From NCBI GenBank assembly GCA_011050015.1, contig DRGP01000102.1:1-64000 (forward strand): a DNA stretch of 64,000 nt. The letters are read 5' to 3'. Source of the DNA: Leeuwenhoekiella sp. Lineage in GTDB: Bacteria > Bacteroidota > Bacteroidia > Flavobacteriales > Flavobacteriaceae. The position numbers and the translations under genes are program-made. The notes beneath the pieces are model-generated. The model did no database searches and was not told the DNA's origin. It saw nothing but the letters and a program-made list of their open reading frames with translations. This document shows positions 33,568 through 57,377 of this stretch, piece by piece. The number at the start of each line of letters is the position of its first letter. Within the stretch, counting starts at the first letter, position 1.

Positions 33568-35229
33568 ATGGAGTTAATACAAAATAACCCTTATCGAATT
33601 GCAGGTATTCTTTCAAACGCAACGACAAAGGAACTTGAAAAGCAAAAAGGAAAAATCAAAGCCTACGCAAAGGTTGGAAAAGAGATCAAATCAGACTTTG
33701 ATTTTCAAATTCTGAGGAATATTAACAGAACTGAAGATACCGTAAACAAAGCATTTTCAAATATTGAGCAAAATCAAGACAAAGTCAATTACTCTTTATT
33801 TTGGTTTTTAAATGCTAGTCCATTTGATAAGACCGCAATTGAATATCTGAAAAATGGAGATGAAGAAAAAGCACTTGAAATTTGGGAAAAAGTAACCACC
33901 AATAAGAATGTCAATACCAAAAACTTCTCTGCATTAAACAATATAGGTACGTGCAAACTTTTAAGTAGGAATACATTCGATATAAAAACAGGGATTGAAG
34001 CCAAAATCAAGCTCATCGAATCTGAATACTTTGAAAACTTTGTCCATTCTGTCGCAGATGAAACATTCACAATTGACAATCAAAAACAATCTGAAAAATT
34101 GATTGATGAATTGCTTATACAATTCAAAAATCAATATGTAAGTTCAGAAATATTGCAATTGTTCAGCGGATGCAATAAAACCACGCAAAATTACCTTTCC
34201 AAAAAATTTACAGAAGAACCATTACACACAATCGAAAGCCAAATTGAAAGTTGTAAAAAGAAACGAAAAGCAGATAAAGACAATGCTTATGAATTTGGTT
34301 TAAAGCTGTTCACAAACACAAAAGACGATTTATCCTTTCTAAAATCATTAATTGGCACTAATGACCTAAAATACAAGACAGCTGCAGACCAATTGGCAAA
34401 TGAAATAATGCAATGTGGTATTGACTATTTCAATGAAAGCCAAGAAAAGAGTTCGAATGAAGATTACCTAACACAAGCCCAAGAACTCAATAAAAAAGCG
34501 TTATCAATTGCGGTAGGGAAGTTAACAAAAGACAGGGCAAATGACAGTCTTGCAACTCTTGAAGAAATGAAAGATCGGGAGGTTAATCAGGCCATTGCAT
34601 TATTACATTCTATTAAGTTGGCTTACGATAATGCTATTAGTAAAATTGAGGCTCAGGTATCTGCAATGAGAATGACTATGTCATATAATCAGTCCATCAA
34701 TTATTCGAAAGTGGATAAAATGAAGGCAAGCTGCTTAAACTGGGATAGAGTAGTAGAAGTTGTCAGTAATGGTATTAGTATTAACAATGTTGAAGCCATT
34801 CAACGTTGCTCAAATCAAAGCAAAATTTCGGAATATAAAAACCTTGTAGATTTCTTGTTTGGCAAACTTGGACCCATTCAAATAAATCAAGTAAAACATC
34901 TATGCTATTGGAAAGACGTAAGAGCAGCTCAAGCTATATCAACGGCAAAAAAAGTTGGATCAACTATGAGCAGTGCAGCTGATAAAGGAGGATGTTACAT
35001 TGCCACAATGGTTTATGGTGATTACGACCATCCACAAGTTTTGGAGTTGAGAAAATTCAGAGATGAATTTTTAAATAAGACAATAATTGGAAGAAGTTTT
35101 ATCAAATTCTACTACAGGTATTCTCCAAAACTAGTTGAAAAACTAGAAAACAAACAAGCAACCAATCTGATAATCAGAAAAGGATTAGATCAATTTATAT
35201 ATATATTCCAAGATGTCATTAAGAAATGA
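33568..35229 (+). CDS. CFI-box C-terminal domain protein with a degenerate J-like N-terminus and TPR-like middle
   Basis: C-terminal GCYIATMVYGDYDHPQVLELRKFRDEFLNKTIIGRSFIKFYYRYSPKL; N-terminal NPYRIAGILSNATTKELEKQKGKIKAYAKV. Confidence 0.6.
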   Translation: MELIQNNPYRIAGILSNATTKELEKQKGKIKAYAKVGKEIKSDFDFQILRNINRTEDTVNKAFSNIEQNQDKVNYSLFWFLNASPFDKTAIEYLKNGDEEKALEIWEKVTTNKNVNTKNFSALNNIGTCKLLSRNTFDIKTGIEAKIKLIESEYFENFVHSVADETFTIDNQKQSEKLIDELLIQFKNQYVSSEILQLFSGCNKTTQNYLSKKFTEEPLHTIESQIESCKKKRKADKDNAYEFGLKLFTNTKDDLSFLKSLIGTNDLKYKTAADQLANEIMQCGIDYFNESQEKSSNEDYLTQAQELNKKALSIAVGKLTKDRANDSLATLEEMKDREVNQAIALLHSIKLAYDNAISKIEAQVSAMRMTMSYNQSINYSKVDKMKASCLNWDRVVEVVSNGISINNVEAIQRCSNQSKISEYKNLVDFLFGKLGPIQINQVKHLCYWKDVRAAQAISTAKKVGSTMSSAADKGGCYIATMVYGDYDHPQVLELRKFRDEFLNKTIIGRSFIKFYYRYSPKLVEKLENKQATNLIIRKGLDQFIYIFQDVIKK

Positions 35230-35827
35230 AATTTTACAAGGCTTAAAAAGTGAGCTGAATAGTCAAGGGTTTCTATTATCACCAGATTTCACTATTAAAA
35301 TGTTTTTAATTTCATATAGTGAAAAGATTATTGAATCAAAAGAAAATAGTCATACAGAATTTATAAAAATAAAAAATGACATTATTGAAAGTTTTATAAA
35401 TCACATAGAGTCATACAAATCATTTTTAAAAAATCAAAATCATAATCACGAAATTCAAAAAATGAATGAAAAAATTTTCATTGCATTAGATTATAACAGA
35501 CAAGAAAATGATCACTTGAAAAATGATGTTTTAATTGAAATCATAGATTCTTTTAAATCAAAAATCAATACTAAAATTCGTGATAATAAACAGAAAACAG
35601 GTTGTTACATAGCCACAATGGCTTATGGTGATTATGACCATCCACAAGTTTTGGAGTTGAGAAAATTCAGAGATGACTTTTTGAACAAAACAATATTAGG
35701 TAGAAATTTTATCAAGCTCTATTATAGGTATTCACCAAGTTTGGCAGAAAGACTAAAAAATAAACAAGGAATCAATCCTATAATCCGTAAAGGGCTAGAC
35801 CTATTCATAAAAACAATCAGAAAATAA
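35213..35827 (+). CDS. CFI-box C-terminal domain protein, short paralog
   Basis: GCYIATMAYGDYDHPQVLELRKFRDDFLNKTILGRNFIKLYYRYSPSLAERL. Confidence 0.65.
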   Translation: MSLRNEILQGLKSELNSQGFLLSPDFTIKMFLISYSEKIIESKENSHTEFIKIKNDIIESFINHIESYKSFLKNQNHNHEIQKMNEKIFIALDYNRQENDHLKNDVLIEIIDSFKSKINTKIRDNKQKTGCYIATMAYGDYDHPQVLELRKFRDDFLNKTILGRNFIKLYYRYSPSLAERLKNKQGINPIIRKGLDLFIKTIRK

Positions 35828-36768
35828 TGAAGAAAATTTTACTCATAGCGCTCTTTTTTGGAGCAACTAATCTTTTTGCGCAACAGCAACAGGATTCAAT
35901 ATTGATAAAGGAAATACCGACCATAAAAAACAACGTATTTCAGCAACGGCAAGAGATTGATGCTTTAACTAAAAAGCTGAACAACCAAAGTTATACAATT
36001 GGAAAGCAAAGCCAGACTATTTCAGGTTTGCAGGAGCAGAATACTAGCCTAAATGCTTCAATTGATAGTTTAAGCCAACTAATCCAAACCAACAGCCAAA
36101 ACATTGTAACCAATTCCAAAGAGCTCGGCACTAAAATTCAAGAAACGGAACAGCAAGCTGAAACCAAGATTTCAGCGCTAGGCGGAGATGTAGAGAAAAA
36201 CCGATTGTATTGGATCATCGCCACATTGGCGACACTTTTATTGGGTGGCTTGATTTATTGGCTATTGGGCAAACGCATAAAATCAAGCAAGACAGATGTC
36301 GAAACCCAAATCAGAAATACCAAAGCTTCACTTGAAGAAGAAAGTGTGAAATTGGACAACAAATTGGTAGAAGTTTTGGAAACACAACTAAAACTTCAAC
36401 AAGAAACGGCTAAATCACAGCCAGTTGCTTCCAACGAAAAAGCCGACCACTCATTGGCTTTAAAAGTAGCCGATGAAATAGCAAGAATGCAAAAGAACAT
36501 ATCTAAAATGGGTAGTGATACTAAAGGGGTAAAACCTCTTTTGAAAGGTATCGAGCGTATCCAAAATAATTTTGCCGCTAACGGCTATGAAATGATAAAT
36601 CATCTTAATAAAGCTTATGATGAGCGATTTAATATTGACGTAATCAACTTTATCACAGATGAAAATTTAGATGAAGGCACAAGAATCATAACAGCAGTAA
36701 TAAAACCTCAAGTAAATTATAAAGGTGTACTCATTCAACGAGCACAAGTTGATGTTTCACAGAATTAA
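35827..36768 (+). CDS. Membrane-anchored coiled-coil protein with C-terminal GrpE-like region
   Basis: Signal peptide, coiled coil, TM (YWIIATLATLLLGGLIYWLLG), C-terminal GIERIQNNFAANGYEMINHLNKAYDERFNIDV...ITAVIKPQVNYKGVLIQRAQVDVSQ resembling GrpE head domain. Confidence 0.55.
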   Translation: MKKILLIALFFGATNLFAQQQQDSILIKEIPTIKNNVFQQRQEIDALTKKLNNQSYTIGKQSQTISGLQEQNTSLNASIDSLSQLIQTNSQNIVTNSKELGTKIQETEQQAETKISALGGDVEKNRLYWIIATLATLLLGGLIYWLLGKRIKSSKTDVETQIRNTKASLEEESVKLDNKLVEVLETQLKLQQETAKSQPVASNEKADHSLALKVADEIARMQKNISKMGSDTKGVKPLLKGIERIQNNFAANGYEMINHLNKAYDERFNIDVINFITDENLDEGTRIITAVIKPQVNYKGVLIQRAQVDVSQN

Positions 36769-36777
36769 AATATTAAT

Positions 36778-39282
36778 ATGGCACGAACAAAAATTGACTA
36801 CGGAATTGATTTAGGAACAACAAATTCCGCTATTTCTCGAATGGAAAATGGAGAGGCAACCATTAAAAAATTGCCTCATAAAGATACAATGGCTTCTTGC
36901 GTTGCATTTAATAAGAAAGGCATTCTTGTTGGAGATAAAGCACACGCTGCATACAGGAGCGAAAAAGAAGCTGCATTATCAAAAGAGGTTAAGCAAAATG
37001 CTTTTATTGAATTTAAGCGAACAATGGGTACTGATAAAAAATACTCGTCCGAATATGGAGGAGGTTTGAGTTCAGAAGAATTATCAGCAGAAATCCTAAA
37101 ATCCCTGAAGTCTTTCATAACTGATGAAAATTTTTCATCCATAGTAATTACTGTACCAGCTGCATTTAAAAACAACCAAAAAGAAGCCACAAGAGAAGCT
37201 GCTAAATTAGCAGGCTTTACCCATATTGAATTATTACAAGAACCCGTTGCCGCAGCAATGGCTTACGGCTTGGACACCGATAAAAAAGATGGTTTTTGGT
37301 TAGTATTCGATTTCGGTGGAGGAACTTTTGATGCGGCTCTTTTAAAAGTTGAAGAAGGCATAATGAAAGTCATCGACACTGAAGGTGATAATTACTTGGG
37401 CGGTAAAAATTTAGATTATGCTATAGTTGATGAGATCCTTATTCCACACATCAAGGAAAATTTCTCAATTGACAGCTATTTAAATGATGAAAGTAAGAAG
37501 AGTGGTTACAGAGATGCTCTCAAATCATTTGCAGAAGAATTAAAGAATGAGCTATCTTTTAAAGACTCTTACAATCTGTATAAAGAAGATAGATGTGGTA
37601 TCGATGACGATGATGAAGAAATTGAGATTGATGTAACAGTTAATCAATCACAAATAGAAGAAGTACTAAGACCTGTATTTCAAAAAGCAGTTAATTCTAG
37701 TCTCAGATTATTGGAAAGAAACAATCTTAAAGGCTCTTCCCTGGATTCTTTAATTCTTGTTGGTGGTCCAACGTTTTCACCAGTTTTGAGAAAAATGTTG
37801 GAAGAACAAATTTGTAAACCCGACACAAGTGCCGACCCAATGACGGTAGTTTCAAAAGGTGCTGCCTTGTATGCATCAACGGTAAATATTTCAGAAGAAG
37901 TAAGAGAACAAACCAGAGATAAAACAAAGATTCAATTGGAAATAGCCAATGAATCATCAACAGTTGAAACAGACGAATTTGTTCCTATCAAGATTTTAGC
38001 TGACAAAACAGAAGGAGAGATTCCTGAAAAAGTATTTGCAGAAGTGACCAGAGGCGACAAAGCTTGGTCAAGCGGAAAGGTTGAAATTAACACAATTGGT
38101 GAAGTTGTAGAAATACAACTCAATGAAGGAAAAACCAATGTTTTTGAAGTGGTTCTGTTTGACGACAAAGGAAATATTTTAGAAAGTGAGCCATCAAGTT
38201 TCAGTGTCATTCAGGGTTCTAAAATTGGAAGTGCGACATTGGCTTACAATTTTGGAATTGACCTTAAAGACAAATCAACAGGAAAAGTACGCTTTAAAAC
38301 AGTAAAGGGATTAGAAAAGAATCAATCTATTCCAGCCGTAGGCGCTTTGAATGATTTAAAAACACAAAAGCAGATTCGTCCAGGAATGGATTCAGATGAA
38401 ATCAAAATTCCATTGTATGAAGGAGAATATGGATCAGATGGGACTCGCGCTATTTATAATGAACACGTTAGCACAGTTAAAATAACAGGAGCTGATTTAC
38501 CGTCACTCTTACCTGAAAATAGCTCTGTAGATATTACAGTCAATATTGATAGGTCGGAAAAGATAACCTTAAAGGCTTATTTCCCTTATTTAGACTTTAC
38601 TTATGAGTCAGATGCTATAACATTTAAAGAATCTGTTGATAAAGAATGGCTTGCAAATGAAATAAGAATGGCAAAAGGCAGTATTCAAGAGTTAAAGCAA
38701 GAAGAAAGTGTTGATGAATATAAACTTCAACAAGTTGAAAATGAAATAGCAGAAATCGAAAAGACTTTTGAAAACAATAAAAACGAGATAGATAGCAAAA
38801 AAGAAGTTTTAACAAACTTGAGAAAAACCTTAAAAATAATTGATGACCTATCTATTCGTAACGAATGGCCAAAATTGGAAGAAACATTAAAAGAAGAGTT
38901 TTATCGCCTAGAAAAAGTTAATAATGATTTAGGCAATGAAAAAACCACACAAGTTGTCAATCAATTTCGTTCACAATTGGATGAAGTAATTCGTGCTAAA
39001 GATGTTAAACTTGGAAATGTTCTATTGGAGGAAATTGAGATGTTCTTCTTCAAATTGACTGAGATATATCAGTTTATCGGAATGATAAGAAACTTCAATG
39101 AGAATTTTGGCGATTACACTTGGAGTAATCCAACCAAAGCAAGGCAATTGGTTAATTCAGGTATGGAAAAAATCGCAAATGGTCCAGACAAAGAAGAATT
39201 AAGAGAAATTTTAATTCCATTATATGATATGATACCAACTATTGAAAGACCAGGTGATGATGGTGGTTTATTGGTTGGATAA
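36778..39282 (+). CDS. Hsp70 (DnaK-like) family protein with long C-terminal coiled-coil extension
   Basis: YGIDLGTTNSAISRMENG, VITVPAAFKNNQKEATREAAKLAGF, FDFGGGTFDAALL, LVGGPTFSPVLR. Confidence 0.95.
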   Translation: MARTKIDYGIDLGTTNSAISRMENGEATIKKLPHKDTMASCVAFNKKGILVGDKAHAAYRSEKEAALSKEVKQNAFIEFKRTMGTDKKYSSEYGGGLSSEELSAEILKSLKSFITDENFSSIVITVPAAFKNNQKEATREAAKLAGFTHIELLQEPVAAAMAYGLDTDKKDGFWLVFDFGGGTFDAALLKVEEGIMKVIDTEGDNYLGGKNLDYAIVDEILIPHIKENFSIDSYLNDESKKSGYRDALKSFAEELKNELSFKDSYNLYKEDRCGIDDDDEEIEIDVTVNQSQIEEVLRPVFQKAVNSSLRLLERNNLKGSSLDSLILVGGPTFSPVLRKMLEEQICKPDTSADPMTVVSKGAALYASTVNISEEVREQTRDKTKIQLEIANESSTVETDEFVPIKILADKTEGEIPEKVFAEVTRGDKAWSSGKVEINTIGEVVEIQLNEGKTNVFEVVLFDDKGNILESEPSSFSVIQGSKIGSATLAYNFGIDLKDKSTGKVRFKTVKGLEKNQSIPAVGALNDLKTQKQIRPGMDSDEIKIPLYEGEYGSDGTRAIYNEHVSTVKITGADLPSLLPENSSVDITVNIDRSEKITLKAYFPYLDFTYESDAITFKESVDKEWLANEIRMAKGSIQELKQEESVDEYKLQQVENEIAEIEKTFENNKNEIDSKKEVLTNLRKTLKIIDDLSIRNEWPKLEETLKEEFYRLEKVNNDLGNEKTTQVVNQFRSQLDEVIRAKDVKLGNVLLEEIEMFFFKLTEIYQFIGMIRNFNENFGDYTWSNPTKARQLVNSGMEKIANGPDKEELREILIPLYDMIPTIERPGDDGGLLVG

Positions 39283-39293
39283 AAGATAAGGAT

Positions 39294-39980
39294 ATGAGAT
39301 TAAGAACTAAATTACTTTTACCGCTCTTTTCTTTAGCTATAATTATTTCTTCCTGTGAAAGTGATGCAGAAAGAAAACAGCGTTTAGCAAAAGAAGAACA
39401 GCAAAGAATTGAATTGGAAGAAAAGCGAAAAGCAGAAGAAGCTGAACGTGCATTTCAATTAGAGCAGGCACGCGTTGAGCAAGAAAAACGTGAGGAAGGA
39501 GAGCGTATAGCCAGGATAGCTCGTCTTGAAAAGGAAAGACAAGAAAAAGCCATCTATGATAAGTACATCAACAATTCCTTAAGTACAGGTGATACGCCAT
39601 ATTCCCGTTATTATGGAGGCAATTCAACTTGTAATGATTACGGCTGTTCACAAATAAAAGTAAGGACGAGTAACTCTGATGTGATTGTTACCATAAAAAA
39701 TAATGATAAAGTTTTTAGACACGCCTACATTAATTCAGGAAGCAGTTTTACGTTCTCATTTCCAAATGGTATTTACCAAACATTTTTTTACTACGGTAAA
39801 GGTTGGAATCCTGAAAAAGAAATGAAAGGCGGTGAAATGAAAGGTGGTTTTATTACCAACGAAAGTTTTGGAAAGGATGACCCTCAATCTTTGAGCAATA
39901 ATATTTTAGAGTATGAGCTGATTTTACAAGAAAATGGAAACTTCAGTACTCGCCCTAGTAATTCAGAAGAAGCATTGTAA
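39294..39980 (+). CDS. Lipoprotein with charged coiled-coil
   Basis: Lipobox ISSC after signal segment; ERKQRLAKEEQQRIELEEKRKAEEAERA helix. Confidence 0.6.
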   Translation: MRLRTKLLLPLFSLAIIISSCESDAERKQRLAKEEQQRIELEEKRKAEEAERAFQLEQARVEQEKREEGERIARIARLEKERQEKAIYDKYINNSLSTGDTPYSRYYGGNSTCNDYGCSQIKVRTSNSDVIVTIKNNDKVFRHAYINSGSSFTFSFPNGIYQTFFYYGKGWNPEKEMKGGEMKGGFITNESFGKDDPQSLSNNILEYELILQENGNFSTRPSNSEEAL

Positions 39981-41753
39981 ATGAATAAGAATAATAACAT
40001 ATTATCCAAAGGGCAATCAATTAACGAGCAGTTCAAAGTGACCTTCTTTCTAAAAAAAGGGAGATATGCTGAAACTTATCGTGTAAAAGACCAAGAAGGC
40101 AAAACCAAACTTTTGAAGCTATTTGCTTACTCAAAATTACATAGAACTCAATTTGATAAAAATGGTGATGTATTAGAGATTGAGGTTTTAAAGAAAATTA
40201 AGCATCCAAATTTGGTTAAATACTGTGATAGTGGTGAACTTCTTTTAAATGGTCAAAAATATGCTTACGCAATTCTTGATTTCATAAGTGGTGAAACCTT
40301 GGCAGATAAATTAAAAAGAGAACAAACCATTAATCCTTATGAAGCTAAAGAGATCATTTCAGGCATTTTGAACGGATTGAACTATCTTCATTCTCTTCAA
40401 AATCCTATTATCCACAACGACATTACAAACCTGAATGTAATGTTAGATTTATCAGGTAAAGTTACGATTCCTAAAATCATTGATTTTGGCTATGCTCGTT
40501 TTTTAAGTCAATCAAACAAGGATTTTTTAAAGGAAGGTTTAAATCCATTTTACCAAGCCAATGAAGCCTTCAACAAAGTGTTTTCGGCTCAAAGTGATGT
40601 CTTTTCGGTTGGTGCATTGTATTATCATTTGTTAGAAGGTTTGCCGCCTTGGTTTGTGGAAATTTCAAAATACAAAGCAGATTCCATAAAGTTGGAAGAT
40701 GCTGTTATTGAAGAACGAAAAAAGCCTTTAAAGTTTTCATCAGTTACAGACCAACAAACCCAAAACATAATCAGCAACGCTTTACAATCAAATGCTGAAA
40801 ATCGGTTTAAGAGTATTAAAAGCTTCATAAAAGCGATAAACGGAGAAATGGAAGTGCAACAGCTTTCATCACCGCAAGAAATGTCTAAACCCAAACTAAA
40901 GGAAATAAAAAAAGGAAAAGGATTTTCAGCAATTGCAGGAATGCAGGAACTGAAAGACACAATCCAATTGGATGTAATTGATGCCTTAAACGAAAAAGAA
41001 CGTTATGCCGAATACGGTTTAACCATTCCAAACGGAATGTTATTGTATGGCCCACCAGGTTGTGGTAAAACGTTCTTCGCAGAACGAATGGCAGAAGAAA
41101 TAGGTTTTAATTTCTATCAGTTAAAGCCATCCGATATTCAGAGTAAGTATGTAAACGAATCACAGGAAAAAATCAAAAACCTTTTTGATGAAGCTCGTGA
41201 AAATGCACCAAGTATCATTTTCATTGATGAGTTAGATGCAGTTGTTCCCAATCGTAACAATTCAAATGTAAATCATATGAATACTAGTGCCGTAAACGAA
41301 TTTTTGGCACAAATGAATAATTGTGGGGATGATGGCATTTTTATAATTGGAGCAACTAACAGGCCCAATTCTATTGATCCTGCGATATTGAGAGCAGGTA
41401 GATTGGACAAACTAATTTATCTACCACCACCTGACCTTGAAGCTCGTGAGTTAATGTTTAAACTCTACTTGGAAAAAAGACCAAGAGAAGTTGGCTTAAA
41501 CTACTCTGAATTTGCAAAAGCAACAGAAAACTATGTTTCAAGCGATATAAAATTCCTTTGTGATGAAGCTTCAAGAAAAGCATTGAAAATGAAATCAAGA
41601 ATTTCAAAGAATATTTTATTAGATACCATAAACAACAATAAGCCTTCAATTAAACTAGATGAATTACACAGCTATATCGCTATAAGAGCTAAAATGGAAG
41701 GGTTGTCAGTAAATATTAACGACCGATCAAGAATCGGTTTTAAAAACAATTAG
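39981..41753 (+). CDS. Serine/threonine protein kinase fused to Cdc48/FtsH-type AAA+ ATPase
   Basis: Kinase: IIHNDITNLNVMLDLSGKVTIPKIIDFGYARF; AAA: GPPGCGKT, IIFIDELDAV, NRPNSIDPAILRAGRLD. Confidence 0.93.
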   Translation: MNKNNNILSKGQSINEQFKVTFFLKKGRYAETYRVKDQEGKTKLLKLFAYSKLHRTQFDKNGDVLEIEVLKKIKHPNLVKYCDSGELLLNGQKYAYAILDFISGETLADKLKREQTINPYEAKEIISGILNGLNYLHSLQNPIIHNDITNLNVMLDLSGKVTIPKIIDFGYARFLSQSNKDFLKEGLNPFYQANEAFNKVFSAQSDVFSVGALYYHLLEGLPPWFVEISKYKADSIKLEDAVIEERKKPLKFSSVTDQQTQNIISNALQSNAENRFKSIKSFIKAINGEMEVQQLSSPQEMSKPKLKEIKKGKGFSAIAGMQELKDTIQLDVIDALNEKERYAEYGLTIPNGMLLYGPPGCGKTFFAERMAEEIGFNFYQLKPSDIQSKYVNESQEKIKNLFDEARENAPSIIFIDELDAVVPNRNNSNVNHMNTSAVNEFLAQMNNCGDDGIFIIGATNRPNSIDPAILRAGRLDKLIYLPPPDLEARELMFKLYLEKRPREVGLNYSEFAKATENYVSSDIKFLCDEASRKALKMKSRISKNILLDTINNNKPSIKLDELHSYIAIRAKMEGLSVNINDRSRIGFKNN

Positions 41754-41755
41754 AT

Positions 41756-42295
41756 ATGGAAACAGTACATTTCAATAAATTATTGCTAAAGACAGCATTT
41801 TCGTGTATGGCTTGTGATGGCGATATTGACAAAAGAGAAATCAAATTAATTGAACGCTTACACAGAGACAATAATACATTCGGAGATATTGACATCAATA
41901 CCGATTTAGACACTTTTTTAAATGCTATCAATAAGGACGGTCATCAATTTTTAAAAGATTATTTCAATGAACTTACTACTACTGAACTAACAGAAGCAAA
42001 TGAATTGAAGTTAATTGAAGTCGCCATAGATACTATCAAAGCAGACGAAAAAGTGGAATACAGCGAAATCAAGTTTTTTAAAGTGATTCGTTCAAAACTG
42101 AAAATTGACAACGAGCCAATTCTTGAAAAACATCCTGATTTTGAAGACTACTTGGAACAGGATATTATTACTGATTCATACTTATCAAGATTACAAGACG
42201 ACTTTTTTGATACTCATATTTCAAATGAATTTGAGTTGATAAGTGAAATTGATGATGACATTTTGGATAACCTCAAACAAAAAAATGAAGAATAG
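41756..42295 (+). CDS. TerB-like protein
   Basis: LLLKTAFSCMACDGDIDKREIKLIERL ... LIEVAIDTIKADEKVEYSEIKFFKVI. Confidence 0.75.
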   Translation: METVHFNKLLLKTAFSCMACDGDIDKREIKLIERLHRDNNTFGDIDINTDLDTFLNAINKDGHQFLKDYFNELTTTELTEANELKLIEVAIDTIKADEKVEYSEIKFFKVIRSKLKIDNEPILEKHPDFEDYLEQDIITDSYLSRLQDDFFDTHISNEFELISEIDDDILDNLKQKNEE

Positions 42296-42593
42296 CGGAA
42301 CTTTTATAAAAATCGCGTTAATAATTCTGATGTTTTTGTGCCTGTTGGATATGCCTTACGGATTTTATCAATTTGTTCGATTTGTAGCTTTAATTGGATT
42401 CGGGATTTTAGCATACAAAGCAAAAGAACAAAATATGAAAACAGAAATGATTATTTACGGTGGGCTTGCCCTACTCTTTCAACCCTTTTTTAAAATAGCA
42501 CTTGGGAGAGAAATATGGAACATTGTAGACGTTATTGTCGGAATTGGACTAATTGGAAGTTTACTATTGAATAGAAATAAAAGCCAATACTAA
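42285..42593 (+). CDS. Small membrane protein (DUF6804-like)
   Basis: ATG at 42285 overlapping the TerB-like gene; three hydrophobic segments. Confidence 0.6.
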   Translation: MKNSGTFIKIALIILMFLCLLDMPYGFYQFVRFVALIGFGILAYKAKEQNMKTEMIIYGGLALLFQPFFKIALGREIWNIVDVIVGIGLIGSLLLNRNKSQY

Positions 42594-47515: not shown

Positions 47516-49972
47516 ATGGCCATAAAAAAATCAGATTTATACAGCTCACTCTGGGCAAGTTGTGACGAACTACGGGGCGGCATGGATGCCTCTCAATATA
47601 AAGATTACGTGCTTACCATGCTTTTTGTCAAGTATGTAAGTGATAAATACGCAGGTAAGAACGACCTAATCCTGGTGCCTGAGGGTGCTTCTTTTGAAGA
47701 TATGGTGGCTTTAAAAGGCAAGGATACCATAGGTGACGATATCAATAAGAAGATCCTAAGACCGCTGTTTGGGGCCAACGGACTCGAAGGTTCGATGGAA
47801 CTGGTAGATTTTAACGATGATGAAAAACTGGGCAGCGGTCAGGAGAAAATAGACCGACTTTCCAAATTGGTTGCCATCTTTGAAAACCCGGCACTCAACT
47901 TTAAAAACAACCGCGCTGAGGATGATGATATCTTAGGTGATGCCTATGAATACCTGATGCGTCACTTTGCTACCGAAAGCGGCAAGAGCAAAGGCCAGTT
48001 TTATACACCGGCAGAGGTTTCGCGCATTTTGGCAAAAGTGATTGATGTTCATAAAGCAGATGTCCCCTCCTATACCGCCTACGATCCTACCTGTGGCTCA
48101 GGATCTTTACTCCTAAAGGTGGCAGAAGAAGCCCCCAACGGACTTACCATTTACGGGCAGGAAAAGGACATTGCTACTAAAGGTCTGGCTATTATGAATA
48201 TGTGGCTGCACGGTTATCCCGAGGCGACTATTTACGGCAAGAATACCCTGGCAAACCCGCAAACCATTGAATCTGATCGCAGTCTTAAACGCTTTGATTT
48301 TGTGGTTGCTAATCCGCCGTTTTCGTTGAAGAACTGGAGCAACGGAATCGCACCGCTTCAGGATGAATATAAACGCTTTCAGGGCTATGGGGTGCCGCCC
48401 GATAAGAATGGGGATTATGCGTTTTTGCTGCATATTTTGGCTTCGATGAAAAGTACTGGTAAAGGCGCGGTTATTTTACCGCACGGGGTGTTGTTTCGCG
48501 GTAACGCAGAAGCAGGCATACGTCAGAACATCATCGAGCGCAAATGGATCAAGGGCATCATCGGCCTGCCAGCCAACTTGTTTTACGGCACAGGAATTCC
48601 CGCCTGTATTATTGTGGTGGATAAGGAAAACTCCGGAAGCCGTAAAGGCATTTTTATGATCGATGCCAGCAAGGGTTTTATTAAAGACGGAAACAAGAAC
48701 CGCCTGCGCGAGCAGGATCTTCATAAGATTGTAGATGTATTCAACAATGCGTGGGAGCTGGATAAATATTCCCGACTGGTTCCGTTTGAGGAAATAGAAA
48801 AGAATGAGTACAATCTCAATATTCCGCGGTATATCGACACGCAGGAAGAAGAAGATATACAGGATCTAAATGCGCACCTCAATGGCGGAATCCCACAGCG
48901 GGATATCGATGCGCTTGAGAACTATTGGGAAGTGTACCCCAATCTGAGAAAGGAATTGTTTACGCCTATCCGAGAGGGTTACTCTAAGCTTAATTTGAAA
49001 AAAGCAGCTATCAAAGAAACCATCTTTAACCATCCCGACTTTTTAAGCTACAACGCACAGCTGGATGCTTTGTTTGGGGAGTTTAAAGCCGCTAACCTGG
49101 AGCCGCTTCACGCCATAAACGCAGACACCAAGCCTAAGGCATTTATCAAACAAATAAGTGAAGACTTACTACAGCGCTACTCAAACAAGCCGCTGATTGT
49201 GCGGTATGATGTGTACCAGCATTTGATGAATTACTGGAAAGAAACACTTAAGGATGATGTGTATATGCTGGTAGAAGAAGGCTGGGTGTCCAAAGTAAAC
49301 CGCATCATCGAGAAGAACAAACGCGGTAAAGAGATTGATAAGGGGTGGACTTGCGAACTCATTCCAAAAGATCTGGTCATCAAAAACTATCTGGGCGCAG
49401 AACAGGAAGCGCTAGCCGGTTTACAAGCAGAACTGGAAACCACACAGGCCGCACGCGCTGCGCTTGAAGAGGAACATAGTGGTGATGAAGGCGCATTTTC
49501 GGAACTGGATAAAATTAATAAGGCAGAAGTAACCCGTTTAAATAAAGAATTGAAGGCGGAAAGCCAAGCAAAAGCGCTAGCCATGGCGGCAGAGCAGGCT
49601 GCAAGTTATGGAGAAAGCCAGACTACTGATTTTGAAATCACCCGGCAGTGGCTAAAGCTTTATACCAAAGAAGCCAGCTTAAAAAAAGACATCAAGGCTG
49701 CTGAAGCTAATCTGGATGCAAACACCTTAAAACAATACGGCAAACTTACCGAAGCCGAGGTACGCCAACTGGTAGTGGAAGACAAATGGTTGACGGATCT
49801 TTATACCGACATACAAACCGAAATAGATGCCATTTCCCAGCGCCTGGCCAACCGTATTAAAGAACTGGCAGCACGCTATGAACAGACTTTAACGGAACTG
49901 GATAAAGAAACTTATACTTTAGAAGAAAAGGTAAACACGCACCTCGAAAAAATGGGATTTGTATGGAGTTAG
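47516..49972 (+). CDS. hsdM: Type I restriction-modification DNA methyltransferase subunit
   Basis: YDPTCGSGSLLLKV, FDFVVANPPFSLKNW; long coiled-coil C-terminal extension. Confidence 0.95.
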   Translation: MAIKKSDLYSSLWASCDELRGGMDASQYKDYVLTMLFVKYVSDKYAGKNDLILVPEGASFEDMVALKGKDTIGDDINKKILRPLFGANGLEGSMELVDFNDDEKLGSGQEKIDRLSKLVAIFENPALNFKNNRAEDDDILGDAYEYLMRHFATESGKSKGQFYTPAEVSRILAKVIDVHKADVPSYTAYDPTCGSGSLLLKVAEEAPNGLTIYGQEKDIATKGLAIMNMWLHGYPEATIYGKNTLANPQTIESDRSLKRFDFVVANPPFSLKNWSNGIAPLQDEYKRFQGYGVPPDKNGDYAFLLHILASMKSTGKGAVILPHGVLFRGNAEAGIRQNIIERKWIKGIIGLPANLFYGTGIPACIIVVDKENSGSRKGIFMIDASKGFIKDGNKNRLREQDLHKIVDVFNNAWELDKYSRLVPFEEIEKNEYNLNIPRYIDTQEEEDIQDLNAHLNGGIPQRDIDALENYWEVYPNLRKELFTPIREGYSKLNLKKAAIKETIFNHPDFLSYNAQLDALFGEFKAANLEPLHAINADTKPKAFIKQISEDLLQRYSNKPLIVRYDVYQHLMNYWKETLKDDVYMLVEEGWVSKVNRIIEKNKRGKEIDKGWTCELIPKDLVIKNYLGAEQEALAGLQAELETTQAARAALEEEHSGDEGAFSELDKINKAEVTRLNKELKAESQAKALAMAAEQAASYGESQTTDFEITRQWLKLYTKEASLKKDIKAAEANLDANTLKQYGKLTEAEVRQLVVEDKWLTDLYTDIQTEIDAISQRLANRIKELAARYEQTLTELDKETYTLEEKVNTHLEKMGFVWS

Positions 49973-51195
49973 TGCAAAAGCGAGGATTTAAACAAACCGA
50001 AGTAGGCTTAATTCCTGAGGATTGGGAGGTTTTAAAGATTGCTGACTCATTAAATTTCAAAAATGGGTTAAATAAGGCTAGCGAGTTTTTTGGACATGGT
50101 ACACCCATAATAAATTATATGGATGTTTTTAATTATAATGGTATCACTAAGTCTGATGTTCAGGGTAAAGTATTTTTGACAAATGAAGAGATAAAAAACT
50201 TTTCAGCGAGAAAAGGCGATGTTTTTTTTACCAGAACATCCGAAACACAAGATGAAATAGGAATATCAGCGGTTTTGTTAGATGAAATTCCTGACTGTGT
50301 ATTCAGCGGCTTTGTTTTAAGGGGAAGACCTTGTAATAATCTCGTCCATAGTGATTACTATCAATATTGCTTTATACCTCAATATGTTCGAAAACAAATT
50401 ATTTCTAAAAGTTCATATACGACTAGAGCATTAACGAATGGGCGACATCTTTCTTCAATTAAATTAATTCTACCTAAAAGTCATAAAGAACAACAAGCCA
50501 TTGCCACGGCCTTAAGCGATGTCGATGCGTTGATCAGTTCGTTAGACGGGTTAATCGCCAAAAAGAAAGCCATCAAGCAAGGCGCGATGCAGCAGTTGTT
50601 GACTCCGCCGAGTAAAGGTGGAAGACGTTTGCCTGGTTTTGAGGGGGAGTGGGAGGAGAAGATGTTGGGGGATGTTTGCAGTATCAATATGGGCCAATCA
50701 CCGCTTTCGTCAAATTACAATACTGAAGGAAAAGGATTGCCATTAATTCAGGGTAATGCAGACATTAAAAAGCGCAAAACAATAATCCGAAACTATACTT
50801 CACAGATTACAAAGATAGCTGATGAAGGGGATATTATTATGTCTGTTCGTGCCCCAGTTGGAGAAATTGCTTACTCAGCTTTCAAATGTTGTATTGGTCG
50901 TGGAGTTTGTGCTATAAAATTTGATAATGACTTTCTATATCACTATTTGATTTTTAAAGAATCCTCTTGGGCCAAATTCTCTACAGGTTCAACTTTCGAC
51001 AGTATTAATTCAAGCCAGTTAAAAAGTCTTATAATCTCAATACCGAAAGACGATGCAGAACAAAAAGCAATTGCCCAAATCTTAAGCGATATGGATCTGG
51101 AAATCGAGCAGCTAGCGGCTAAAAAAGAAAAGTACACTCAGGTTAAGCAAGGGATGATGCAGGAGTTGTTAACGGGGAAAACAAGGTTGGTGTGA
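49963..51195 (+). CDS. hsdS: Type I restriction-modification specificity subunit
   Basis: Two TRD-like halves with conserved EQQAIATALSDVDALI / EQKAIAQILSDMDLEI helices. Confidence 0.95.
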   Translation: MELVQKRGFKQTEVGLIPEDWEVLKIADSLNFKNGLNKASEFFGHGTPIINYMDVFNYNGITKSDVQGKVFLTNEEIKNFSARKGDVFFTRTSETQDEIGISAVLLDEIPDCVFSGFVLRGRPCNNLVHSDYYQYCFIPQYVRKQIISKSSYTTRALTNGRHLSSIKLILPKSHKEQQAIATALSDVDALISSLDGLIAKKKAIKQGAMQQLLTPPSKGGRRLPGFEGEWEEKMLGDVCSINMGQSPLSSNYNTEGKGLPLIQGNADIKKRKTIIRNYTSQITKIADEGDIIMSVRAPVGEIAYSAFKCCIGRGVCAIKFDNDFLYHYLIFKESSWAKFSTGSTFDSINSSQLKSLIISIPKDDAEQKAIAQILSDMDLEIEQLAAKKEKYTQVKQGMMQELLTGKTRLV

Positions 51196-53009
51196 TGGGG
51201 GATAAAATTTTAGAATGCATCAGCTTTTTCAAAGAGTTAGAAATTTTTGAAATTGATGTTACCACAGAAATCGAGCTCTCAAATCATCAAAAGGTTGTTG
51301 AGGTTGAGTATTTATATAGAGGACAATCTTTTAAAACACAAAAACTTTATTATAAAAATATCCTTCGCCAAGAAAACATAAGAAATCCAAAAAATATAAT
51401 TAATTATTTTCAAGAGGAAGTGTATTGGTTAGATATTGAAAAACACGATTGGGCAAAAGGAACTGGCGAAGCAGAACTTGAAAAAATTGTTATAGAAGAA
51501 ATTGCTCACGATGATGATCACAATTTTAAAAGATTTTTAAGAAAACTAGCAAATAACCAAAAGACTGGATTTATACAACGCATAACTGCAGATGGTAAAC
51601 CTGGGCAGTACTATCACAATTTTGAGAACAATAATCATTGGCACGATATTATTCTACTTGTAAAGCAAATCATTGATAAAAAAGGGAGTAAAGTTAATAA
51701 AAAGTATTTTTCAAAATTAGTTTTTAGGTGGGATGGAAACAAGAATACATATAGAAGGCGTTCTTCTCTTGCTAAGGAAGTTGAATGGAAGTCTAGAGCA
51801 TTTGTTGATAGATTATATCATAATATTAGATCGGTACAAAATAGAGTTAGATATATGGAAATAACAGAAGTACTCAAACAAAAAAAACAAATAATTCTAC
51901 AAGGCCCACCTGGAACGGGGAAAACTAGAGAAGCAAAAGATATTGCTGAACAGTTAATTTTTGGCACTGTAACTGAAGATAAAAAGGAGCAGAAAGTAAA
52001 ATTAGAAGAAAACGAGCAATATAAATTGGTTCAATTTCATCCCGCTTACTCTTATGAAGATTTTGTGCGTGGTATCGTAGTTAAAACAGATGTCAGCACA
52101 ACACCAGAATATAAAACTGTAAATAAAACTTTAGGTGCATTTGCTAAAAAAGCTAATGAAAGCAATTTGACTGGTGGTGTAGATGATTTTGATAGAGCTT
52201 GGGAAGAGTTGATACAGGATATCAACGATGGCACGATTGGGAAGATAGGTAGCAGTAATGTTGATGTAAGCATCAATAGTCAAGGTAATATCCGATTCAA
52301 CTCACCAGTTGCTACCTATGAAAAGACGTATGAACTGTATAGAAAAGGAGCTACAGATTTAAAATATGAAACCTACCAAAAAATTGTTCTTAATTACTTA
52401 AAAAACCCAAACGGCAAGTATAAGCTGAAGAATTATGAGGCTCCTAAGACCGTAGATTCTAATACACCATATGTGCTTGTTATAGATGAAATAAACAGGG
52501 CAAACTTACCAGCAGTTTTGGGGGAATTAATTTACGCGTTAGAGTATCGGGGGGAGCAGGTAGAAAGTTTGTACTCAACACTGGATGAAGGCAATACGCT
52601 AATACTGCCAGAGAATTTATACATCATTGGTACGATGAATACTTCAGATCGTAGCGTAGGGCATATTGATTATGCTATAAGAAGGAGGTTTGCATTTGTA
52701 GATATGTTACCCAAAGTGTTGGCTATAGATAATTTTGAGTCAGTTATATTTGAAAAAGTAGCAGCATTATTTATCAAAAATTTCAAGGAGTATCAAGAAG
52801 ATAACACGGTTGTTTTACAACGTTCTGAATATTTGTCAGAAGAGTTTAGACCCGAAGATGTGTGGTTAGGTCACAGTTATTTTATTAAGACGGGTAGTGA
52901 TTTTTTAACAAGGAAAAAGTATGAAATCATCCCTATTTTAAAGGAATACATAAATGATGGTATTTTAAAAGAAACTGCAGAAGCTGAAATAAATTCGTTA
53001 TTAAAATGA
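51195..53009 (+). CDS. McrB-like AAA+ NTPase
   Basis: LQGPPGTGKTREAKDIA, VLVIDEINRANLPAVLGELIYALEYRG, IGTMNTSDRSVGHIDYAIRRRF. Confidence 0.93.
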   Translation: MGDKILECISFFKELEIFEIDVTTEIELSNHQKVVEVEYLYRGQSFKTQKLYYKNILRQENIRNPKNIINYFQEEVYWLDIEKHDWAKGTGEAELEKIVIEEIAHDDDHNFKRFLRKLANNQKTGFIQRITADGKPGQYYHNFENNNHWHDIILLVKQIIDKKGSKVNKKYFSKLVFRWDGNKNTYRRRSSLAKEVEWKSRAFVDRLYHNIRSVQNRVRYMEITEVLKQKKQIILQGPPGTGKTREAKDIAEQLIFGTVTEDKKEQKVKLEENEQYKLVQFHPAYSYEDFVRGIVVKTDVSTTPEYKTVNKTLGAFAKKANESNLTGGVDDFDRAWEELIQDINDGTIGKIGSSNVDVSINSQGNIRFNSPVATYEKTYELYRKGATDLKYETYQKIVLNYLKNPNGKYKLKNYEAPKTVDSNTPYVLVIDEINRANLPAVLGELIYALEYRGEQVESLYSTLDEGNTLILPENLYIIGTMNTSDRSVGHIDYAIRRRFAFVDMLPKVLAIDNFESVIFEKVAALFIKNFKEYQEDNTVVLQRSEYLSEEFRPEDVWLGHSYFIKTGSDFLTRKKYEIIPILKEYINDGILKETAEAEINSLLK

Positions 53010-54307
53010 TAAAACTTTGTGAGCAATATGGTTACAATAATCCAAGAACAATAGATAATATTGAGGAGTTTTCAGCCCTATTAGGAAATAAGTCTTACCA
53101 GAAATCAATACCTCGCGGTCAGGATAAAGCTTATTGCTATACTATTTATCATAATGAAAATGAAGAAAATAAGTTCAAGTTTGAAACATCCTATTTCGTA
53201 GGTGTAGATTGGATTGTTGAAAATAAGCTGCCCATTTATATTCATCCCAAATCAGATAATAACACTCACGAAGTAGATTATCTAAAAATGCTTTTTTCTT
53301 CATTTAAAGAACCGCAAAATTATAAACATTTTGACCAACTATTTGAAATCAATTTTAGTAAGCCGAGTATTCCTATACTTCAATCCCAAGATCTATTAAC
53401 GCCACTGCTTCTTATTCAATATTTAAATGTCTTAAAGAAGATAGTTCAAAAGGGATTGAAGAAATCATATTATCCAATTACAGAAAACCTAAATGCGAAA
53501 GTGAAAGGTAAAATTTTGGTAAATGATACAATAAGGAAAAATCATTTTAATGGCAAAATACTTAATAGTTATTGTAAATATAACGAGTTTGGCGTCAATA
53601 GTTTTGAAAACAAATTTTTAAAGAAGGCGCTGCATTTTACTATTTCGGCCGTTCAAAATACAAGAGGGTTGGATACATCTGCCCTAAATAACATTATTAA
53701 TTATGTCAAGACTGCTTTTTCAAATGTTAAGAGTGACGTTGATGTTAGAATGCTTAAAAGCGTTAAATCTAACGCATTATATAAAGAATATGATATTGCC
53801 TTAAAATTGGCTAAAATTATTTTAAAAAAATATGGTTTCAATATATCAAATACAAATGCTTCGGTTGTTAAAACTCCACCATTTTGGATTGATATGAGTA
53901 AACTCTTTGAGTTATTTGTTTATGCCAAGCTTAAAGAACGGTTTAAGGAACACAATGAGGTTACCTATCACAAAAAATTTAATTATTTAGAACCTGATTT
54001 TATAGTAAAAACAAATGATGGCCAAATTAAAATGGTTGTAGACGCTAAGTACAAACCACAATATCAAAAGGGTAGAATAAGTACTGATGATATAAGACAG
54101 ATAAGTGGTTATGCTAGATTAAAAAAAGTATATGAATTTCTGGGGTTAGAAAGTGACAGTGTCATAGATTGTTTGGTAATATATTCAAATCAAAATGCGA
54201 ATAGGGATAACTTTAAGGAAGGAAACTTTGAACTTGAAAGAGAATCAGAATATAATAAATTTTACAAAATAGGTATTGAATTACCAGTTAAGCAGTATCA
54301 AAATTGA
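53006..54307 (+). CDS. McrC-like nuclease subunit
   Basis: PD-(D/E)XK: LEPDFIVKTNDGQIKMVVDAKYKP; ATGA overlap with mcrB-like gene. Confidence 0.88.
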   Translation: MIKLCEQYGYNNPRTIDNIEEFSALLGNKSYQKSIPRGQDKAYCYTIYHNENEENKFKFETSYFVGVDWIVENKLPIYIHPKSDNNTHEVDYLKMLFSSFKEPQNYKHFDQLFEINFSKPSIPILQSQDLLTPLLLIQYLNVLKKIVQKGLKKSYYPITENLNAKVKGKILVNDTIRKNHFNGKILNSYCKYNEFGVNSFENKFLKKALHFTISAVQNTRGLDTSALNNIINYVKTAFSNVKSDVDVRMLKSVKSNALYKEYDIALKLAKIILKKYGFNISNTNASVVKTPPFWIDMSKLFELFVYAKLKERFKEHNEVTYHKKFNYLEPDFIVKTNDGQIKMVVDAKYKPQYQKGRISTDDIRQISGYARLKKVYEFLGLESDSVIDCLVIYSNQNANRDNFKEGNFELERESEYNKFYKIGIELPVKQYQN

Positions 54308-54347
54308 ATGCTATTATTATATATGGCGATAAAATAATCCTTTATAT

Positions 54348-57300
54348 ATGAACACTATAGGCAAAGCAGAACGTCCCTCTCAAGATCGTATTGTTCAGCT
54401 TTTTCAAAGCGAGTTGGGTTATCGGTATTTAGGCAACTGGCAGGACGAATTTCGTACCCAACCGGTAGAGGAAGACTTGCTTAGAAATTTCTTAAACAAG
54501 CAAGGTTATTCTGCTGCGCTTATAGACCGTGCTGTATCTAAGTTTTTAAAGTCTGTTACCAACATTGCTTCCGGTTTATATGATGCCAATAAGGAAGTTT
54601 ATAAACTCATACGCTATGGGGTTAATGTGCGGGAAGATTTAGGCGAAGCCAAAGAGTCTGTGTTGCTTATCGATTTTAAGAACCCCGAGAATAATGATTT
54701 CGCCATTGCAGAAGAAGTCAGTTTTAAAGGAAAGCACAACAAGCGACCGGATGTGGTTCTGTGTGTAAACGGTATTGCAATAGGTGTTTTAGAATTAAAA
54801 AGTTCACGGAAAGGTCTTGAAGAGGGCATACGTCAAAATCTGGATAATCAAAGCGATTATTTTATACCAAAATTCTTTACCACCATTCAGTTGGTATTGG
54901 CTGGTAACGATACCCAAGGCTTACGGTATGGTACGACCAGAACTTCAGAGCAGTATTATTTAAAATGGAAAGAAGCTTCTGATGCTTCGTATGAATATAT
55001 CATTGACAAGCACATCGTTCAGCTCTGTGAGAAGAAGCGTATGCTGGAGATCATTAAGGATTTCACCATATTTGACAAAGGCGTCAAGAAACTCTGTCGT
55101 CCCAATCAGTACTTTGGTATTAAGGCGGCCCAGCAACGCATACGAGATAAAGAGGGCGGTATTATTTGGCATACACAAGGTAGTGGTAAAAGTTTGACGA
55201 TGGTCTGGCTTACCAAGTGGATACGTCAAAATATTGATGATAGTCGGGTCTTGATCATTACAGATCGGGAAGAGTTAGATGACCAGATCGAGAAATTATT
55301 TATAGGGGTAGAAGAAAGCATCTACAGAACAAATTCCGGGAGGGATTTATTAAATGTACTTAACCACAAAACCCAAATGCTTATTTGCAGTTTGGTGCAT
55401 AAGTTTGGTAACCGTTCTGAGGAACCTGATTACGATAAATACATCAAAGAGCTCAAGGAAAGCCTGGGCTCAGATTTTAAAGCCAAAGGAAACCTGTATG
55501 TTTTTGTTGATGAATGCCACCGCACCCAAAACGGTAAATTGCACGAAGCGATGAAAGCCATTCTGCCTGAAGCTCTTTTTATTGGTTTTACAGGAACACC
55601 CTTGCTTAAAAAAGATAAGCAGAAGAGTATTGAAATTTTTGGACCATACATAGGAGAACCCTATAAGTTTGATGAGGCGGTAGAAGATGGGGTGGTACTT
55701 GACCTGTTATATGAAGCCAGAGATGTAGAGCAGTTTGTTACCGCACAGGATAAAATTGACGAGTGGTTTGATGCCAAGACTCAGGGTTTAACTGATGTCG
55801 CTAAAATAGAACTCAAGAGAAAGTGGGGTACCATGCAAAAAGTGCTTGGCTCTAAATCCAGGCTTGCAAAAATCGTAAATGATATCGTTCATGATTTTGA
55901 TACCAAACCACGCCTGTATACGGGCGAAGGTAATGCGATGCTGGTTTCCGGTAGTGTATATCAGGCTTGTAAATATTACGAACTCTTTCAGCAGGCAGGC
56001 TTTAAAGAATGCGCGATTATAACTTCCTATGAACCGCATCACGCAGATATAAAAGGGGAAGATTCAGGAGCATCCAATCCTACCGATAAGCTCTTGAAAT
56101 ATGAGGTGTACACAAAGATGCTCAAAGGAAAATCTACGGTGGTTTTTGAAAACGAAGCCAAGCAACAGTTCATCAATGAGCCCAGTAGAATGAAACTCCT
56201 TATCGTAGTTGATAAATTACTCACAGGCTTTGACGCACCCTCAGCAACCTATCTGTATATTGATAAAAGTATGCAGGATCACGGGCTTTTTCAGGCAATT
56301 TGCAGAGTCAACAGGATAGATACAGATGATAAAGAATACGGGTATATCATTGACTACAAAGATTTGTTTAAAAGCTTAGAGCGTTCTATTCAGGACTACA
56401 CTTCAGAGGTTTTTGATAATTATGATCAGGAGGATGTACAAGGGCTTCTTAAAGATAGACTTCAGGAGTCCAGAAACAGATTGGATACTGCTCTGGAAGC
56501 GGTGAGAGCGTTATGTGAGCCGGTACACCCTAAAGATGAGCCTAATTATATTCGATTCTTCTGTGGCAATACAGAAAATCCTGATGATATAAAGCAGACT
56601 GAGGAAAAGCGGGTTGCATTATATAAAGCTGTTGTTTCAGTCATACGCTCATATGCTAATGTGGCGAATGAAATGGGAGCGCTGGGGTATTCTAATACAG
56701 AAGCTGAAAAAATCAAAGAAGAAGTTAAGTTTTATTCCGATTTGCGGGATACCATCAAACAGGCCAGTGGTGATCACGTCGATCTAAAGCGTTTTGAGTC
56801 TGGTATGCGCCAATTGATGGATCGCTATATCGATGCGATGTCGAGTAAAAAAATATCAGACTTTGAAAATAAATCTATTGTCGAGTTGATCGTAAACCTG
56901 GCCAATGAACCGGAAGCCGAGTACAAGACTAAGCGGCAAGAAGCTGTTGCGGAAACTATTGAGAATAACGTGAGAAAAGTTATCATTGAAGAAACTCATG
57001 CCAACCCGAAGTATTATGAAAAAATGTCAAGGCTTCTTGATGAGATCATAGCGCAACGAAAAACAGAGGCACTTTCCTATCAGGAATACTTAAGAAGAAT
57101 TATAGAATTAGCTGAGTTAGTGACAGCTCCTCAAAAAACAAATGAATATCCACAGTCTTTAGATTCGCCGGCCAAGCGGGCTTTATACGATAATCTGGAG
57201 GCAAACGAAATTTTAGCTTTGGCTTTAGATAATATTATTAAAGCTAACAAACTAGACGGTTGGCGTGATGCAGGTATTAAGGAAAGAAAGTTGAGAATAG

Positions 57301-57377
57301 CGGTTCAAAACATCTTAAAAGATGATGAGAAAACAGATGTATTAATGGATATTATCAAAGCGCAACGTGACTACTAG
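54348..57377 (+). CDS. hsdR: Type I restriction endonuclease subunit R
   Basis: RPDVVLCVNGIAIGVLELKSS, WHTQGSGKSLTM, VDECHRTQ, GFTGTPLL. Confidence 0.96.
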   Translation: MNTIGKAERPSQDRIVQLFQSELGYRYLGNWQDEFRTQPVEEDLLRNFLNKQGYSAALIDRAVSKFLKSVTNIASGLYDANKEVYKLIRYGVNVREDLGEAKESVLLIDFKNPENNDFAIAEEVSFKGKHNKRPDVVLCVNGIAIGVLELKSSRKGLEEGIRQNLDNQSDYFIPKFFTTIQLVLAGNDTQGLRYGTTRTSEQYYLKWKEASDASYEYIIDKHIVQLCEKKRMLEIIKDFTIFDKGVKKLCRPNQYFGIKAAQQRIRDKEGGIIWHTQGSGKSLTMVWLTKWIRQNIDDSRVLIITDREELDDQIEKLFIGVEESIYRTNSGRDLLNVLNHKTQMLICSLVHKFGNRSEEPDYDKYIKELKESLGSDFKAKGNLYVFVDECHRTQNGKLHEAMKAILPEALFIGFTGTPLLKKDKQKSIEIFGPYIGEPYKFDEAVEDGVVLDLLYEARDVEQFVTAQDKIDEWFDAKTQGLTDVAKIELKRKWGTMQKVLGSKSRLAKIVNDIVHDFDTKPRLYTGEGNAMLVSGSVYQACKYYELFQQAGFKECAIITSYEPHHADIKGEDSGASNPTDKLLKYEVYTKMLKGKSTVVFENEAKQQFINEPSRMKLLIVVDKLLTGFDAPSATYLYIDKSMQDHGLFQAICRVNRIDTDDKEYGYIIDYKDLFKSLERSIQDYTSEVFDNYDQEDVQGLLKDRLQESRNRLDTALEAVRALCEPVHPKDEPNYIRFFCGNTENPDDIKQTEEKRVALYKAVVSVIRSYANVANEMGALGYSNTEAEKIKEEVKFYSDLRDTIKQASGDHVDLKRFESGMRQLMDRYIDAMSSKKISDFENKSIVELIVNLANEPEAEYKTKRQEAVAETIENNVRKVIIEETHANPKYYEKMSRLLDEIIAQRKTEALSYQEYLRRIIELAELVTAPQKTNEYPQSLDSPAKRALYDNLEANEILALALDNIIKANKLDGWRDAGIKERKLRIAVQNILKDDEKTDVLMDIIKAQRDY

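Follow-up and report, generated by a model that had tools for sequence, protein, structure and literature searches.

Can a bacterium hold the nucleotide-exchange step of an Hsp70 cycle at its inner membrane? A 64,000-nucleotide stretch of Leeuwenhoekiella sp. DNA (contig DRGP01000102.1, positions 1 to 64,000, hereafter the window) raises this question through a 313-residue open reading frame with an ATG start, protein C (35827..36768; like all features below, on the + strand), whose stop codon ends at 36768, nine bases before the ATG of an Hsp70 gene at 36778. Overall, we favor the reading, with a probability of roughly 0.8, that protein C is a membrane-tethered GrpE-like exchange factor that recruits and recycles the adjacent Hsp70 at the inner membrane. 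Its computed basis consists of topology signals, a GrpE fold, operon conservation, and co-variation between the C-terminal domain (the head) and the Hsp70 nucleotide-binding domain (NBD) at the GrpE interface.

The architecture of protein C can be followed from its N-terminus. Residues 1-18 (35827..35880), MKKILLIALFFGATNLFA, form a signal peptide, seen in the relatives too as a hydrophobic stretch after MKK, with predicted cleavage after LFA. A predicted periplasmic coiled coil follows (residues 19-125, 35881..36201), which gives weak coiled-coil profile matches and is variable among relatives. Hydropathy then places a single transmembrane helix at about residues 127-148 (36205..36270), succeeded by KRIKSSK; the strongest hydrophobic 19-mer starts at residue 130, with a Kyte-Doolittle value of 2.05. 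Exactly one such segment is present in all 71 aligned sequences, and in 70 of these the C-terminal flank carries more lysine and arginine than the N-terminal one (means 4.0 versus 1.8). By the positive-inside rule, this excess should therefore orient the head toward the cytoplasm and the coil toward the periplasm, most likely making protein C a type I single-pass inner-membrane protein. A long cytoplasmic helix in the AF2 model (residues 153-200, 36283..36426) leads up to the GrpE-like domain itself (residues 202-313, 36430..36765), in which helices precede a six-stranded beta domain. The signal peptide, coiled coil, single transmembrane helix and GrpE-resembling C-terminal stretch (residues 241-312) described in an earlier note on this DNA are thus all present, as is the Hsp70 gene it placed immediately downstream.

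Relatives of protein C were found in 80 loci of the genome contigs searched, nearly all from Bacteroidota, and an Hsp70 gene lies directly downstream in 78 of them. With this many relatives, a constant topology and such linkage, the features of protein C are not due to chance. Conservation is concentrated in the head, where mean identity across relatives is 63%, versus 27% in the N-terminal part. Two head types (..NIDVINF.. and ..EGMKVSANF.., split roughly, by a motif regular expression) are found on very similar N-terminal halves, as when the window's head (36430-36765) is compared with that of locus L016 and others.

The resemblance to GrpE is clearest in structure. The AF2 model of residues 153-313, built from 71 sequences (pLDDT 90.1, pTM 0.81), comprises a long helix, two further helices and six strands, and in a Foldseek search of the PDB its first 12 matches were all GrpE or GrpEL1 chains (9a81, 1dkg, 9bls, 4ani, 3a6m, 9blt and 8gb3), with E-values of 2.3e-5 to 1.6e-3 and probabilities of 0.99-1.00 over about 160 columns. 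Rank 13 stood at E 0.66, more than a hundredfold above the last of the GrpE chains. The TM-scores to GrpE are modest (0.35-0.48); a different placement of the long helix is the probable cause. The earlier note had staked its proposal on structural similarity to the GrpE head; both the model and these 12 matches provide it.

Sequence comparison points the same way at lower strength. Against Pfam, NCBIfam, PADLOC and the PDB, the full-length protein returned coiled-coil noise only, and GrpE emerged once the coil was removed. The isolated head then has GrpE (PF01025) as its top Pfam family (E 6e-4), at a score of 20.0 bits, which is below the cut-off of 25.8; the alignment carries residues 11-111 of the domain onto profile positions 68-165, the last of the profile, and 12 of 31 family members match the same model. 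A profile of the GrpE-like family run over 396 genomes of the phylum recovered, after its true members, canonical GrpEs encoded between hrcA and dnaJ (L131, L132, L134, L136 and L141; E 2e-4 to 6e-3). Alignment of the head with 26 canonical GrpEs by hhalign was collinear over 100 columns (E 0.0033), with a probability of 9.8 that is low because the profile is shallow, and a profile search of the PDB with the head gave weak coil and BAG matches only, GrpE being absent from them.

These matches bear on a quite different account, in which protein C is a coiled-coil protein of the envelope or of cell division and its likeness to GrpE is accidental. Coiled-coil and DivIC/SH3-and-anchor profiles do weakly match the N-terminal half, and a relative on plasmid pHALHY02 (NC_015512.1) is annotated as 'septum formation initiator'. 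However, those profile matches are confined to the coil, while the conserved part of the protein is the C-terminal domain, with its GrpE fold and its linkage to Hsp70. We regard this account as very improbable, and as largely refuted already by the modelled head and its Foldseek matches.

If protein C is an exchange factor, its partner would be the neighboring 834-residue Hsp70 (36778..39282). The NBD of this protein is intact at about residues 4-377 (PF00012, 1.9e-60 on residues 9-377; PDB DnaK, 1e-48), complete and with its ATPase motifs present; in its C-terminal half, profile and PDB searches detected no DnaK substrate-binding domain. Distance matrices compared over 56 loci tie the head most closely to this NBD (correlation 0.81); the correlation is 0.64 with the Hsp70 C-terminus, 0.50 with protein A, 0.45 both with the kinase-AAA protein and with the N-terminal half of protein C itself, and 0.39 with the TerB-like protein. 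Each variable NBD column was then correlated with head distance after the other parts had been regressed out. The regions through which DnaK contacts GrpE (28-33, 51-61, 255-272 and 276-302; PMC10825016) hold 19 of the 30 top co-varying columns, where 6.7 were expected (AUC 0.76), with an entropy-matched permutation p of 2e-4, the floor of the test, and none of 241 circular label shifts reaching the result. The same regions score 0.33 for the coil half, 0.34 for the Hsp70 C-terminus and 0.52 for protein A; the kinase-AAA protein also yields a weak partial signal (0.60). Within one head type the AUC is 0.70 (8 of 240 shifts reach it), and it weakens to 0.63 in 24 dereplicated loci (4 of 248). 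Since the NBD columns depend on one another and the control for phylogeny is rough, the rank and specificity of the signal weigh more than its p-values. The occurrence of two head types on very similar N-terminal halves looks as if heads had been swapped along with matching residues of the NBD surface.

The co-variation may have another origin: head and NBD could co-vary as one recombined block of DNA spanning the gene junction, rather than through contact, and the true partner could then be another Hsp70. It is true that the head is encoded next to where the NBD begins, and head types differ between close relatives. Against this, columns 255-302 exceed columns 62-254, which lie nearer to the junction (AUC 0.70, p 1e-4), although this contrast is gone in the dereplicated set (AUC 0.56). 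On balance we consider a purely recombinational origin quite unlikely, and continue with the adjacent Hsp70 as the probable partner of the head.

At the same time, the head is not a canonical GrpE. In a merged alignment the two share L212/L96, V214/V98, D216/D100 and R220/R104, and further G253/G138, A306/A188 and V310/V192 (head/GrpE numbering), so that the GrpE helix motif LxVxD[DE]xxR is kept, as LKVADEIAR at residues 212-220 (36460..36486; LPVxD[DE]xxR in GrpE). Other signatures are lost: an H-x-A-type match occurs in 26 of 26 canonical GrpEs versus 5 of 75 sequences of the GrpE-like family, the canonical G-Y becomes Q-V, and the invariant Arg186 is replaced by an equally invariant Gln304. 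The full signature, which we take to be H-x-A, G-Y and an R-x-A near the C-terminus, fits just 14 of the 26 canonical sequences. Where GrpE has the functionally critical Gly122, whose mutation inactivates the E. coli protein (PMC10825016), the head has Q or P. Given the sub-threshold Pfam score, the membrane anchor and the lost signatures, protein C is therefore classed as a divergent GrpE-like branch. The GrpE-like reading of the earlier note is borne out by the fold, the top Pfam family and the co-variation with the NBD, and the unqualified name GrpE proves too strong. Pieces of a canonical GrpE and DnaK also occur in the host, at contig ends, and the protein C cassette is therefore an additional system.

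The same substitutions could mean that the head no longer exchanges nucleotide and only holds the Hsp70 at the membrane, as a dock or as an allosteric clamp. The replacement of H-x-A, G-Y and Arg186, in part by other residues that are just as invariant, and the absence of glycine at the Gly122 position would fit such a role. Nonetheless, the helix motif and the fold are kept, and so is co-variation with both NBD lobes, IB and IIB, the contact pair needed for cleft opening; we consider a head without exchange activity unlikely.

The mechanism that we envisage for a membrane-tethered exchange factor is as follows. Protein C would cross the inner membrane once and present its GrpE-like head to the cytoplasm, where the head would bind the adjacent Hsp70 through the NBD surface that corresponds to the GrpE-binding face of DnaK. 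Binding would open the nucleotide cleft, so that ADP could leave and ATP be exchanged in, and the Hsp70 would thereby be concentrated and recycled at the inner membrane. The periplasmic coiled coil would probably hold a dimer together and, more speculatively, may relay a signal from the envelope to the head; any role of the kinase-AAA and TerB-like proteins in this machine is likewise speculative.

These two proteins belong to a recurrent cassette, whose usual order, with few exceptions, is protein A, the GrpE-like protein, Hsp70, an optional lipoprotein, a kinase-AAA fusion, a TerB-like protein and an optional DUF6804 protein. In the window, protein B, a second and shorter CFI-box protein (35213..35827; NF041770, 4.6e-22), precedes protein C, and the Hsp70 is followed by protein E, a predicted lipoprotein (39294..39980; lipobox ..ISSC) that is not in every cassette. 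Protein F (39981..41753) fuses a Ser/Thr kinase (PF00069, 5.9e-35) to a Cdc48-type AAA ATPase (PF00004, 1.5e-39); the fusion is kept in the cassette, and no model in the libraries searched covers it whole. Protein G (41756..42295) is TerB-like, by a PF05099 match that is below the cut-off (0.0051) and by its conserved position, and protein H (42243..42593; PF20619, 6.7e-36) is a DUF6804 membrane protein and a variable member. Departures from this plan include two tandem Hsp70 genes in each of two cassettes (L017 11078-16932 and L034 10955-15940), and a lone GrpE-like membrane protein, without Hsp70 or other members nearby, in two related Bacteroidales (L070 4799-5695 and L071 9995-10891). Open reading frames of about 95 residues, directly upstream of other Hsp70s, also match the head profile (L129 1438-1719, E 1.3e-5; L139 1447-1734, E 0.005), and judged by sequence these are possible soluble, head-only GrpE-like exchange factors.

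Protein A (33568..35229), by profile, AF2 and Foldseek, combines a J-like N-terminal fold lacking HPD with a helical middle and a C-terminal CFI box. Its N-terminal 84-residue domain is modelled at pLDDT 89.5, and its best Foldseek matches are mostly J domains, none with an E-value better than 1.3; a profile search of the PDB gave two matches, both to J domains and both weak (E 0.14 and 0.52). The HPD motif occurs in 0 of 57 relatives. The domain is at most a degenerate J-like one, and its co-variation with what we take to be the J-binding face of the NBD was unsupported by the approach used for the head (AUC 0.43). At the C-terminus, 30 of the 57 relatives carry a transmembrane-type hydrophobic segment, 22 a CFI box instead, and none both. 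The transmembrane ends suggest, independently of protein C, a membrane setting for the cassette, and the mutual exclusion of the two features hints that the CFI box, too, may target the protein to the membrane.

The cassette is patchily distributed, with clear matches in 6 of 395 genomes of the class and 6 of 396 of the phylum, the window's own genome counted in each. Its flanks have almost nothing in common, and beyond the cassette itself no gene recurs widely in them. Relatives of protein C were found in no viral contig or phage and in one plasmid, the pHALHY02 mentioned above, where the BREX genes brxL and pglZ neighbor the cassette (L146 8001-16891). The window itself carries, 5 kb downstream of its own cassette, a complete type I restriction-modification system made up of HsdM, HsdS, an ATPase-like protein and HsdR (47516-57374). 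The cassette is mobile-looking, and a tie to defense is a lead only.

These data describe a GrpE-like protein that spans the membrane, comes in addition to GrpE and is paired with an Hsp70 of its own; the cassette encoding the two is found repeatedly across Bacteroidota and has gone unrecognized by annotation. If our reading is true, an exchange factor, and not J proteins alone, can position a bacterial Hsp70 cycle at the inner membrane and perhaps gate it, and the co-varying head/NBD pairs form a natural series for direct tests of nucleotide-exchange specificity. One can go further and imagine an Hsp70 machine of Bacteroidota that is membrane-based, self-contained and spread horizontally, with the coiled coil controlling exchange across the inner membrane, a degenerate J-like protein, also membrane-anchored, taking part, and the kinase-Cdc48-type ATPase acting downstream; this would amount to transmembrane signaling into the Hsp70 cycle, which might serve envelope-stress repair or phage defense. 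We offer this larger picture as a doubtful extension. The literature searched, which covered few subscription papers, describes no GrpE anchored in a membrane.

Protein C shares with GrpE (PF01025) the fold of its cytoplasmic domain, the LxVxD[DE]xxR helix motif, an Hsp70 partner and, by co-variation, the contact surface on the NBD. Canonical GrpE, however, is soluble with a disordered N-terminus, whereas protein C has a signal peptide, a periplasmic coiled coil and a transmembrane helix, along with replaced signature residues and a score below the Pfam cut-off. Among co-chaperones of bacterial Hsp70s, the inner-membrane J protein DjlA, which carries a TerB-like domain, is likewise membrane-anchored, but it is a J-domain activator of DnaK and not an exchange factor. 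As for exchange factors, a review holds that eubacterial genomes encode only one for Hsp70, namely GrpE (PMC4753570). The yeast protein Snl1, a BAG-domain exchange factor anchored in the ER membrane, offers a parallel in having its active domain in the cytoplasm, yet it is eukaryotic, its BAG domain is of unrelated fold, and it lacks an extracytoplasmic coiled coil (PMC3962485). A further parallel comes from GTPase-centric conflict systems of the GAP1-N2 type, reported mostly from actinobacteria and firmicutes: their Hsp70-GrpE-DnaJ modules likewise encode, away from the housekeeping locus, an additional Hsp70 together with an exchange factor and a J protein dedicated to it. Those systems contain GTPases and FNIII proteins, whereas the protein C cassette belongs to Bacteroidota, has no such GTPase among its conserved members, and carries the kinase-AAA and TerB-like proteins instead (PMC7159879).
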